Both the position numbers and the translations under genes were made by a program. Below, piece by piece: positions 45,170 to 48,840 of a stretch of 64,000 nt of DNA (position 1 is the first letter of the stretch; each line of letters begins with the position of its first letter). The notes below the pieces were generated by a model. That model searched no databases and had not been told where the DNA came from. It was given only the letters and a program-made list of their open reading frames with translations. This DNA comes from Georgenia subflava (GTDB lineage: Bacteria > Actinomycetota > Actinomycetes > Actinomycetales > Actinomycetaceae), in assembly GCF_009193155.1 (NCBI RefSeq), contig NZ_VUKD01000002.1:372001-436000 (forward strand), in the 5' to 3' direction.

Positions 45170-46903
45170 CTACTCCTGCTGCCAGGAGTGCCACAGGGCC
45201 GCGTACTCGCCCTCGGCCGCCACCAGGTCCTCGTGCGGCCCGAGCTCGACGATGCGGCCGTCCTCGACGACGGCGACCCGGTCGGCGTCGTGCGCGGTGT
45301 GCAGACGGTGGGCGATGGCCACGACCGTGCGGCCCGCGAGCACCGCCGAGAGGGACCGCTCGAGGTGCCGGGCGGCGCGCGGGTCGAGGAGCGACGTCGC
45401 CTCGTCCAGCACCAGCGTGTGCGGGTCGAGCAGCACCAGCCGGGCCAGCGCGACCTGCTGGGCCTGCGCCGGCGTGAGCTCGGTGCCGCCCGACCCGACC
45501 TCTGTCTCGAGGCCCTTCTCGAGCCGGCCGAACCAGCCGAGCGCGTCGACGGCGTCGAGGGCCTGGCGCATCTCCTCGGGTGAGGCCGCCGGGCGCGCGA
45601 GGCGCAGGTTGTCCGCCAGCGTGCCGACGAAGACATGGTGCTCCTGCGTGACCAGGGCGACGTGCGAGCGCAGGTCCTCCTCCGGCAGATCCACCAGCGG
45701 GACCTCCCCGACCGTCACCGACCCGCCGGTGGGCGGGTGGATCCCGGCGAGCATCCGGCCCAGCGTGGACTTGCCCGCGCCGGACGGCCCGACGACGGCG
45801 AGCCGCTCGCCGGGGACCAGGTCGAGGTCGACGTCGTGGAGGACGTCGGTGCCCGCGCGGTAGGCGTAGCGCACCTTCCGCGCCTCGATGTGCTCGTCGT
45901 CGGGCGCCGCGCCGCTGGCGGCACGGTCCGGCTCGACGAGGCTGACGCCGAAGATCCTGGACAGGCTGGCCAGGGCGACCTGCAGCTCGTCCACCCAGAA
46001 CAGCAGCTCCGAGACGTGCGGGCGCACCTGCATCGCGTACAGCGCGATGGTGGTGACCGCACCCAGGGTGACGGCGTCGCGCTCGACGAGCCACGCACCC
46101 CACAGCAGGGCCGCCGCGACCGGCAGCATGAAGGAGACGCCCAGCCAGAAGAACAGGCTCACACGCATGCGCAGGGTGACGACCTCGGTGTCCCACGCCT
46201 CGGCGATGGCCCGGTCGGTGATCCGCCGGCGACGGCGGCCGAGGCCGAGCGCGTCCACGGTGGTGGCGTGCTCGACCGACTCCGTCAGGACCCCGTTCAG
46301 CCGGGCGAAGGCCTCGGAGTTGCGCAGGTAGGCCGGGGTTGCGACGCGCAGGTAGCGGCGCACCGCCACGACGATGATCGGGATGCCGACCAGCAGGGAC
46401 AGGGCCGTGACCGGCGAGGCGAGGAGGGCGGCGACCACGGTCAGCAGGATGGTCGAGCTCGTGACCAGCACCCTGGGCACACCGAAGCGCACCATCCACT
46501 GGATCCGGTCGACGTCGTTGGTCGTGCGGCCGATGAGGTCACCGGTCCCGGCCCGCTCGACCGTCGAGAGGGGGAGATGGGTGACGGTGGCGAGGAAGTC
46601 CTCCCGGAGCCGGGCGAAGATCTCCTCGCCGAGGATCATGGCGTCGCGGTGCGCGAACCGGGTGAGCAGGGACTGGACGAGCACCACCCCGACGAGGACG
46701 AGCCCCAGCCGGTTGACGAAGGCGACGGTGGTGCCGGTGGCGACGGCGTCGACGAGGTCGCCGAGCAGCCACGGCAGGGCCAGGGCGGCGACGGCGGCCA
46801 GGGCCTGCACGATCACCACGCGGGCGAGCTGGCCTCGGTAGTTCTTCAGCAGGGCCAGGGAGCGGGTCCGGACGGTGCGCGCGTCCGCGGTGGGGAGCAG
46901 CAT
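45170..46903 (-). CDS. ABC exporter half-transporter B: intact P-loop, degenerate signature
   Basis: A 577-residue half-transporter: six membrane helices (about residues 20-300) then an ATPase domain. The A-loop Tyr is in VRYAYRAG, Walker A GPSGAGKST, the Q-loop Gln in VALVTQEHHVF, Walker B LVLDEATSLLD and the H-loop AIAHRLH, all intact. The signature is not LSGGQ but LTPAQAQQVALARL. Its ATG overlaps the partner's TGA by one base. It must pair with the upstream-encoded half, whose LSGGQ completes the ATP site. Substrate unknown; lipid, peptide and drug export are all possible. Confidence 0.92.
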   Translation of the reverse strand: MLLPTADARTVRTRSLALLKNYRGQLARVVIVQALAAVAALALPWLLGDLVDAVATGTTVAFVNRLGLVLVGVVLVQSLLTRFAHRDAMILGEEIFARLREDFLATVTHLPLSTVERAGTGDLIGRTTNDVDRIQWMVRFGVPRVLVTSSTILLTVVAALLASPVTALSLLVGIPIIVVAVRRYLRVATPAYLRNSEAFARLNGVLTESVEHATTVDALGLGRRRRRITDRAIAEAWDTEVVTLRMRVSLFFWLGVSFMLPVAAALLWGAWLVERDAVTLGAVTTIALYAMQVRPHVSELLFWVDELQVALASLSRIFGVSLVEPDRAASGAAPDDEHIEARKVRYAYRAGTDVLHDVDLDLVPGERLAVVGPSGAGKSTLGRMLAGIHPPTGGSVTVGEVPLVDLPEEDLRSHVALVTQEHHVFVGTLADNLRLARPAASPEEMRQALDAVDALGWFGRLEKGLETEVGSGGTELTPAQAQQVALARLVLLDPHTLVLDEATSLLDPRAARHLERSLSAVLAGRTVVAIAHRLHTAHDADRVAVVEDGRIVELGPHEDLVAAEGEYAALWHSWQQE

Positions 46904-48840
46904 CAGCGGACCTCCTCGGGGGTGGGCTCGGCGGCCGGCTCGTCGGACCCCGCGGCCTGCCGGGTGACGACCTGGTGGTAGGCGACCGCGTCGGGTTCCC
47001 CGCCGGCGGCCCGGGCGAGCAGGTCACGGTGCGGCCCGCGGGCGCGCTCGCGACCGCCGTCGAGGAAGACGACCTCGTCGGCGTGCTCGAGGACCAGCGG
47101 CGACGCGGAGACGATCACGGTGGTCCGTCCGGCCCGGTGGTCGGCCAGCCGTGCGGCGATGCGGGCCTCGGTGTGCGCGTCGACGGCGCTGGTCGGCTCG
47201 ACGAGCACGAGCGTCTCGGGCTCGGTCAGCAGCGCGCGCGCCAGGGCGACGCGCTGACGCTGCCCGCCGGAGAGGGAGCGGCCCTTCTCGGTGATCTCGC
47301 CGTCGAGGCCCGCCGGCATGGAGGTGAGGACGTCGTGGGCGTCGGCCGCCTCGAGGGCGCGGTACAGCGCCGCCTCGTCGGCCCGGTCGCGCAGGTCGAG
47401 CTCGTCGCGCAGCCGGCCGGTGAACAGCTGCGGGGTGGCGCCGGCGACGACGATCCGGTCGCGGACCTCCGCCAGCGGGAGGTCGGTCAGCGCGACGCCG
47501 CCGTAGGTGACGGTGCCTGCCGCGTCGTCGAACCGCCCGAGCCGGGTGGCCAGGGCCGCCGACTCGTCGGGGTCCTCGGAGACGATTACGGTCGTCCGGC
47601 CGGGACGGATCCGTACGCCCGAGGTGACGTCGACGAGCTCGGCCGCGGGGCGTGCGTTCGCGTCCGGCACGGTGGTGGTGGCGCGGGTTGTGGCCGCTCC
47701 GGGCGCAGCGGCAGCGCCGGACGCGGCATCGGCGCCGGGAGTGGCGGCGGCGCCGGGCGTGGCGGCGGCAGACGCCGCACCCGGTGCCCCGATCGGGGCG
47801 GCCGGGGCGCGCTCGTCGGCCGCCTCGGACTCGGCGAGGGTGCCGGCCGCCGGCTGGACCTTGAGCACGCCGATGACCTTGCCTGCGCCCACGCGGGCCC
47901 GGGTGATCATCTGGACGAACTGGGTGGCGGCGCGCAGCGGCTCGGCCAGGAACGCCGTGTAGCCGAAGAAGGCGACGAGCTGGCCGGGGGTGATCTCGCC
48001 CCGCACGGCGAGCAGCGCGCCGAACCAGACGACGCCGGCCACGAAGAGGCCGGGCAGCAGCACCTGGAGGGCGTGCAGGATCGCGGAGGTGGTCGCGACC
48101 CCGACGCCCGCGGTGCGCACCCGTTGGGACTGCTCGGCGTACCGGGCGGCGAAGACGTCCTCGCCGCCGATGCCGCGCAGCACGCGCAGTCCGGAGACGG
48201 TGTCCGAGCCGAGGGTCGTGAGGCGGCCCGAGGCCTCGCGGTGCGCCGCCTGACGGGTGTGCAGCGGCTTGACCAGCAGGCCGAGGACCGTGGTGGTCAG
48301 CGGCAGGCCGACGAGGATGACGAGCCCGAGGGTGACCGACTGCTGGAGCACGACGACGGCGACGACGACGAAGGCCACGACCGAACCGACGAACCGGGGG
48401 AAGACCTCCATGACGTTGCCGATGTGGAAGGCGTCCGAGGCGACGGTCGAGACGACCTCGCCCGTGGGCAGCTCGTCCGAGATCGCGTCGCCGGTGCGGG
48501 TCACGTGGTGCCCGACGAGCCGGGACGTGCGGAACGCCCCGTGCAGCCAGGCGCCGATCTCCCCGACGTGGCCGTACGCGCTGGCGACGGCGCCCACGAG
48601 CCCGACGCCCAGCAGCAGCAGGCAGGTGCGGAGGAGCTCGGTGGACAGGCCCTGCGCCAGCCCCTCGTCGAGGGCGACGCCGAGGAGGTACGGCACCGCG
48701 GCGACCGAGACGGCCTCGACGATGCCGAGGGCGACGGCGAAGGCCAGGACCCCGGCCTCGCTCCGGGCGAGCCACCCGAGAAACGCCATCGGGCGGGTCA
48801 GCGGAGGATGTCCAGGATGACCCTGGGGCACGTTGAGCAC
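46903..48840 (-). CDS. ABC exporter half-transporter A: no P-loop, intact LSGGQ
   Basis: A 645-residue half-transporter, starting at GTG 48840 (ATG 48879 or 48789 are alternatives; AGCCTA complement, i.e. TAGGCT, lies 8 nt upstream). Six membrane helices are followed by an Ala/Pro linker of about 50 residues and an ATPase domain. The signature LSGGQRQRVALARAL is perfect, but Walker A is replaced by VIVSEDPDESAALATRLG, Walker B reads LVLVEPTSAVD (no Asp) and the H-loop is VSASPL (no His). This half cannot bind ATP in its own site; it supplies only the signature to partner B. Confidence 0.9.
   Translation of the reverse strand: MLNVPQGHPGHPPLTRPMAFLGWLARSEAGVLAFAVALGIVEAVSVAAVPYLLGVALDEGLAQGLSTELLRTCLLLLGVGLVGAVASAYGHVGEIGAWLHGAFRTSRLVGHHVTRTGDAISDELPTGEVVSTVASDAFHIGNVMEVFPRFVGSVVAFVVVAVVVLQQSVTLGLVILVGLPLTTTVLGLLVKPLHTRQAAHREASGRLTTLGSDTVSGLRVLRGIGGEDVFAARYAEQSQRVRTAGVGVATTSAILHALQVLLPGLFVAGVVWFGALLAVRGEITPGQLVAFFGYTAFLAEPLRAATQFVQMITRARVGAGKVIGVLKVQPAAGTLAESEAADERAPAAPIGAPGAASAAATPGAAATPGADAASGAAAAPGAATTRATTTVPDANARPAAELVDVTSGVRIRPGRTTVIVSEDPDESAALATRLGRFDDAAGTVTYGGVALTDLPLAEVRDRIVVAGATPQLFTGRLRDELDLRDRADEAALYRALEAADAHDVLTSMPAGLDGEITEKGRSLSGGQRQRVALARALLTEPETLVLVEPTSAVDAHTEARIAARLADHRAGRTTVIVSASPLVLEHADEVVFLDGGRERARGPHRDLLARAAGGEPDAVAYHQVVTRQAAGSDEPAAEPTPEEVR

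Follow-up and report, generated by a model that had tools for sequence, protein, structure and literature searches.

We describe here two overlapping genes of Georgenia subflava (assembly GCF_009193155.1) that appear to encode the halves of an adenosine triphosphate (ATP)-binding cassette (ABC) transporter, one of which has lost its Walker A phosphate-binding loop (P-loop). They lie in a stretch of 64,000 nucleotides, positions 372,001 to 436,000 of contig NZ_VUKD01000002.1, which was analysed at its full length and is called the window below; its coordinates are used throughout. The two genes, termed here half A and half B, are as follows.

46903..48840, minus strand: half A, an ABCB-type half-transporter of 645 amino acids (GTG start at 48840, stop codon 46903-46905)
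45170..46903, minus strand: half B, an ABCB-type half-transporter of 577 amino acids (ATG start at 46903)

The start codon of half B and the stop codon of half A overlap by one base (TGATG). Each half carries an exporter membrane domain (PF00664) followed by an ATPase domain (PF00005), with Pfam scores above the cut-off, and the closest named relative is Georgenia sp. EYE_87 (half B identity 87%). The ATPase motifs, and the linker that precedes them in half A, are distributed as follows.

47644..47850, minus strand: Ala/Pro-rich low-complexity linker of half A between the sixth transmembrane helix (TM6) and the ATPase domain, residues 331-399
47554..47589, minus strand: VIVSEDPDESAA, residues 418-429 of half A, the former P-loop (ex-P-loop); in place of Walker A stands a conserved stretch with the family consensus VSxDPDESA, which the model shows as the start of a helix
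47422..47451, minus strand: Q-loop region of half A, VVAGATPQLF, residues 464-473, with Ala at the Q position
47260..47274, minus strand: signature of half A, LSGGQ, residues 523-527
47179..47211, minus strand: Walker B and D-loop of half A, LVLVEPTSAVD, residues 544-554; Asp replaced by Val, catalytic Glu retained
47095..47112, minus strand: VSASPL, residues 577-582 of half A, at the former H-loop (ex-H-loop), with Ser in the place of His and Pro after it
45764..45790, minus strand: Walker A of half B, GPSGAGKST, residues 372-380
45464..45478, minus strand: degenerate signature of half B, LTPAQ, residues 476-480
45383..45415, minus strand: Walker B and D-loop of half B, LVLDEATSLLD, residues 497-507
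45296..45319, minus strand: H-loop of half B, AIAHRLHT, residues 529-536

A first-pass annotation of this DNA had described half A as keeping an intact LSGGQ while lacking Walker A, the Walker B Asp and the H-loop His, and half B as keeping all core motifs beside an LTPAQ signature; both descriptions are borne out at these coordinates. To them we add that the Q-loop Gln of half A is replaced by Ala, and that the stretch expected to hold its A-loop strand is occupied by the linker. By its motifs, the pair possesses a single complete composite ATP site, made of the half B core and the half A signature, and one impaired site, made of the half A core and the half B signature, which would be doubly dead. 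This complementary pattern, likewise proposed in the first-pass annotation, is conserved in the relatives described below.

The loss of the P-loop, whose position in half A reads VIVS-EDPDESAA, withstood a search for a shifted but intact copy: a displaced or hidden P-loop was ruled out by motif reading, by the Pfam match, by the AlphaFold model and by the alignment of relatives. The Pfam ABC_tran alignment begins only at profile position 32 in half A (44.8 bits), as against profile positions 1-137 in half B (86.5 bits), and a P-loop is present in all seven further exporter proteins from this genome that were aligned. In the half A model (mean predicted local distance difference test, pLDDT, 87.4), a strand at residues 416-421 is followed by a two-residue turn and by a helix whose first residue, Pro424, lies opposite the second GxxG glycine in the alignment, the aligned blocks averaging pLDDT 93-97; in the half B model (mean pLDDT 80.9, with parts of the ATPase domain below 50 and low confidence at 421-424 and 494-513) the helix begins at Lys378, after a normal P-loop. 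From the models, the phosphate loop of half A seems to have become part of a helix, as its first turn, with a conserved S-x-D-P-D/E as the cap. Among solved structures, the best fold matches of half A include TmrAB chain B (VIA-align Z 27.0, root-mean-square deviation 4.1 over 548 residues), as well as chain A of TM287/288 and chain A of MsRv1273c/72c, with many other exporters within 1 Z unit. We take TM287 and TmrB to be the degenerate-core halves of their heterodimers. Half A, as its sequence reads, is homologous to ABC ATPase subunits and non-canonical for want of a Walker A P-loop.

Counting that of the window itself, 53 of the 149 genomes searched in the order have relatives of half B (E ≤1e-110). 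Relatives of half A (E ≤1e-95) occur in 45 of the 396 searched in the phylum, a count that includes the window's own genome and that of locus L163, whose half has a P-loop. The wider set was gathered with a profile built on P-loop-less halves (E ≤1e-95) and is biased towards such halves, although it still returned the P-loop pair of L163. Dropped before counting were L058 and L105 (contig ends, no half A), L059, L092 and L165 (fragments), L118 (the window again) and L163; with near-duplicates and half B rows truncated by the fetched stretch also removed, 144 half A rows were reduced to 129 and 146 half B rows to 117. The Walker A lysine is absent from all 77 readable halves of the nearest family, window included, and from all 129 distinct A halves of the wider set, none of which has Gln at the Q-loop column and all of which have Ser-Pro at the H-loop; single P-loop glycines persist in only a few of these rows, and the Walker B Asp in 12. 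The same 129 halves all retain the Ser and second Gly of LSGGQ and the D-loop Asp. Among the 117 distinct full-length B halves, the Walker A Lys, the Q-loop Gln, the Walker B Asp and Glu and the H-loop His are present without exception, and the D-loop Asp is gone in 16, as against none of the A halves. Loss of this Asp only in half B, where it should face the empty side, and not in half A, where it should face the active side, matches the prediction of a single working site.

The first-pass annotation had also proposed that adjacent pairs be searched for joint loss of the P-loop and the partner signature. Both positions could be read in 133 pairs (duplicates kept); 132 are without the lysine, and 131 of these are also without S-x-G in the partner. 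The only pair with the lysine is that of L163, whose partner signature is SAG. The motif loss in the window pair is hence a trait common to a large actinobacterial pump group and not a local defect. That half A is instead decaying, as an incipient pseudogene or an artefact of sequencing, might be argued from its loss of several normally invariant motifs, but uniform lysine loss together with uniform retention of the LSGGQ and D-loop residues is hard to square with decay, the frame is open, and no P-loop-bearing relatives were seen inside the clade among those examined. Selection points the same way. In a comparison with the close relative L038, the ratio of nonsynonymous to synonymous substitution rates (dN/dS) is 0.20 for the half A ATPase domain, 0.18 for its membrane domain and 0.11 for the half B ATPase domain; the half A ATPase domain is under purifying selection, and the constraint on it is similar to that on its membrane domain both in this comparison and in one with the more distant L042. 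On conservation and dN/dS we dismissed the pseudogene and sequencing-error explanations, whose probability we regard as negligible.

A further alternative is that the halves act with other partners or as homodimers, so that the half A core and the half B signature never face one another. The genome does offer other candidates, with 113 places matching half B, itself included, many of them other ABC proteins. Against this, half A is the gene immediately upstream of half B in 78 of the 80 named loci, the contig ending in the remaining two, and the window genes overlap by one base; the A and B trees mirror one another; and a B/B homodimer would be without LSGGQ, and an A/A homodimer without a P-loop, at both sites. 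Exchange of partners, which the first-pass annotation had singled out for checking, thus finds little footing in gene order, and we hold this alternative to be very improbable.

The trees come from a quick maximum-likelihood reconstruction with Shimodaira-Hasegawa-like approximate likelihood ratio test (SH-aLRT) support only, a midpoint root and long branches (two outgroup rows and the TetA and TetB proteins discussed below). In it, 44 P-loop-less A halves, TetA included, are set apart by a single branch (SH-aLRT 100), and 16 LSGGQ-less partner B halves, TetB included, mirror the A group (SH-aLRT 99). The L163 pair, an ordinary degenerate-site pair with its P-loop intact, falls outside both groups. 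A search seeded with L163, from whose longer match list 30 loci were examined, L163 included, gave a P-loop in the A-like half of all 30 and Gly at position 4 of the partner signature in 9 of 9 readable cases. These ordinary A-like halves mostly have Asp in place of the catalytic Glu (LDDAT), which is the usual degenerate Walker B; four have LDEATA. We suggest that an ordinary degenerate-site pair was the likely starting point and that the P-loop then disappeared as the partner signature decayed; with the tree rooted by midpoint, this sequence of losses is only inferred. The Streptomyces-like group (L166, L175 and similar), whose P-loop-less halves have a Walker B with Asp-Glu (LDEPTS), is possibly an intermediate state. 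We also note that the contig of L108 is labelled Spirochaetaceae (a metagenome bin) and that of L079 Sporosarcina, which may reflect mislabelling, misbinning or horizontal transfer.

Taken together, the conserved absence of these motifs, the corresponding loss in the partner, the grouping in the tree, the purifying selection and the predicted fold lead us to regard it as highly probable that the window pair is a heterodimeric transporter of the ABCB type (type IV fold) that runs on a single ATP site, its other side serving as a nucleotide-free contact. Half B would bind ATP through its Walker A, Walker B, Q-loop, A-loop and H-loop, and LSGGQ of half A would cap it; closure of LSGGQ over ATP would draw the ATPase domains together and flip the membrane domains outward, and hydrolysis at the Glu of half B would allow the ATPase domains to reopen. 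The second site would be empty, because both the P-loop and the matching signature are lost, and we infer that this side acts as a hinge or contact between the ATPase domains and that transport runs in the direction of export. A protein contact there would substitute for the long-lived unhydrolysed ATP supposed in ordinary degenerate-site exporters. A more specific form of this proposal, to which we give somewhat less than even chances, is a permanent nucleotide-free latch shared by the whole clade, in which half A, through its ex-P-loop helix cap (VSxDPDESA) and its Ser-Pro, grips the LTPAQ loop of half B, the transporter working as a hinged clam on a single ATP and the ordinary degenerate site representing an intermediate.

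Several observations weigh against a one-site pump with an empty second site. The Walker B catalytic Glu is present in 110 of the 129 A halves, with Asp there in 17, a retention for which the proposal does not account, and in 50 of them the A-loop stretch contains an aromatic residue or a His. Position 4 of the signature is Gly in 4 of the 117 B halves; L117 keeps S-x-G beside a P-loop-less partner, the sole such pair of the 133; and halves of the Streptomyces-like group have a Gln two residues off the Q-loop column. The aromatic residues and this nearby Gln slightly reduce our confidence in the one-site proposal and in the latch. The half A model is of a single chain, free of partner and nucleotide. 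In the comparison with L042, dN/dS rises to 0.53 for the A ATPase domain, 0.57 for the A membrane domain and 0.32 for the B ATPase domain; the share of synonymous differences is hardly higher there than against L038, so that synonymous sites are probably saturated at that distance and more weight falls on the close pair. Two further objections come from published work. In ABCB1, mutating either Walker A abolishes function (PMC7756269), which makes a one-site pump unexpected. In Pdr5, ATP is still seen in a degenerate site that counts among the most heavily altered ones known (PMC8421411), and motif loss by itself is therefore no proof of an empty site.

The Pdr5 result is also an argument for treating the window pair as an ordinary degenerate-site exporter, in which the second site binds nucleotide through unusual contacts, in the manner of Pdr5 or MsRv1273c/72c, and hydrolysis alone has been lost. 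The Pdr5 reports describe alteration of all motifs of one site, as in the window pair, with LNVEQ as the partner-domain signature, and ATP bound nevertheless (PMC7756269, PMC8421411). The Walker A change, however, is from Lys to Cys (PMC7756269), so that the loop is altered in Pdr5 and not lost as it is in half A. Pdr5 is, moreover, a single chain with its ATPase domain before its membrane domain, whereas the window pair consists of two chains with the membrane domain first, and hence does not have the pleiotropic drug resistance (PDR) order. The match of half A to the fold of ordinary degenerate-site exporters also favours this alternative. On the other side stand the complete absence, among the 129 A halves, of the Walker A lysine, the Q-column Gln and the H-loop His, with P-loop glycines in few rows, the modelling of the ex-P-loop as a helix, and the retention of the P-loop by the 30 ordinary pairs. 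We consider nucleotide binding of this kind at the second site distinctly unlikely.

A third alternative leaves the one-site mechanism unchanged and reverses the direction of transport, making the pair a type IV-fold importer of, for instance, siderophores. YbtPQ is an importer, and it is among the structural matches of half A, as is IrtAB, a type IV-fold pair reported to import siderophores; the transport direction of the window pair is thus uncertain, a point that also counts against our proposal. The importer alternative draws further on a distant subgroup of the relatives (L148-L162, L164), in which the Walker B Asp of half A is mostly His and half B has AEAG, AESG or ADAG where the D-loop usually reads S-x-L-D. 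A related neighbouring frame occurs in 7 of the 16 loci of this subgroup, and the one tested is a siderophore-type binding protein; single frames tested in L148, L150 and L151 are FecCD, a nonribosomal peptide synthetase (NRPS) and a formyltransferase, respectively.

L150:6577-7500: siderophore-type binding protein (Peripla_BP_2) adjoining a member of the distant subgroup, with the NRPS also in L150
L148:1504-2652: FecCD, adjoining a member of the distant subgroup
L151:6424-7500: formyltransferase, adjoining a member of the distant subgroup

The distant subgroup thus fits siderophore handling. The coelichelin gene cluster presumably holds NRPS, FecCD, binding-protein and formyltransferase genes, and some of the distant-subgroup loci resemble it in these neighbours; the likeness of this subgroup to CchGI is one of gene context. 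Against import, these siderophore loci already carry FecCD or binding-protein uptake genes; CchGI of Streptomyces coelicolor is given as the presumed coelichelin exporter (PMC12161575); TetAB is annotated as an efflux pump; and inspection of the neighbouring genes found no siderophore genes directly adjoining the window pair, which in this respect is unlike CchGI. We judge import to be unlikely, if less so than nucleotide binding at the second site.

The window pair is flanked by DUF3817 and guaA on one side and by an F420-oxidoreductase-like gene, SURF1 and phosphoketolase on the other. Relatives of the SURF1, phosphoketolase and guaA frames, identified by eye, recur in 44, 38 and 37 of the 80 named loci, and such apparently inherited gene order is uninformative on substrate; the attempt to deduce a substrate from the neighbours was dropped, the flanking genes giving no clue to it. 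A scan of the window gave 0 Rfam matches at the gathering score and 0 tRNA genes. The long Ala/Pro linker noted in the first-pass annotation is real in half A, where AlphaFold pLDDT is below 50 at residues 349-389 and dN/dS against L038 is 0.61 (36 codons), looser than in the flanking domains. It is atypical, however, and long only in the window's lineage: 92 residues separate the end of TM6 from the ex-P-loop strand in the window, as against a median of 38 (range 34-97) in the 129 A halves, and on this variation in length the linker was dropped as an element of the general mechanism.

The role of the degenerate site in heterodimeric ABC exporters is a standing question, to which one common reply is that ATP trapped there holds the two ATPase domains to each other. 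A clade without the P-loop, whose partner halves are complete and whose members are under purifying selection, would suggest that the second nucleotide is dispensable, and it would provide a natural single-site pump in which the ATP spent on each transport step could be counted; such a design could reveal the real purpose of the second ATP site. Fold and heterodimer are known; what appears to be new, within the literature sampled (mostly abstracts), is the natural loss of a whole P-loop, fixed across a broad actinobacterial group and matched by loss in the partner, and that sample contained no description of an ABC exporter clade without a P-loop.

In its fold, the window pair is like TM287/288, TmrAB, BmrCD and MsRv1273c/72c, and it shares with the ordinary pairs of the L163 search its adjacent genes and the division into a degenerate core in one half and a degenerate signature in the other. 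Those ordinary pairs keep the P-loop, whereas half A does not: retention of the P-loop at the degenerate site, a trait of the class of TM287/288, TmrAB and BmrCD, is absent from half A both in the alignment and in the model. In MsRv1273c/72c, nucleotide is bound at the degenerate site (PMC12038006).

The closest parallel in layout is TetAB of Corynebacterium striatum plasmid pTP10 (L187:4566-7691), recorded as a tetracycline efflux ABC transporter and listed in a review as an exporter of tetracyclines and beta-lactams (PMC8304765). Like TetAB, the window pair places a P-loop-less half with LSGGQ upstream of a half with a P-loop and without LSGGQ. TetA resembles half A in being without the P-loop and the H-loop His and in keeping LSGGQ, and TetB resembles half B in its intact Walker A (GTSGAGKST) and missing LSGGQ. 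TetA differs from half A in retaining the Walker B Asp (LILDDPT), in an H-loop (VITGNA) without Ser-Pro and in a shorter ATPase domain, and TetB differs from half B in having AEAG as its D-loop. Profile matches connect the families (A2-TetA, E 1e-34, 26% identity; A3-TetB, E 3.4e-53, 36% identity), and in the tree TetB and TetA group with the distant subgroup with support of 99 and 91, TetA on a long branch. The TetAB literature sampled contained no remark on the missing P-loop of TetA or the missing LSGGQ of TetB. On these motifs, TetAB appears to be an unrecognised member of the P-loop-less pump group, which would seemingly place a named drug exporter among the relatives of the Georgenia pair.

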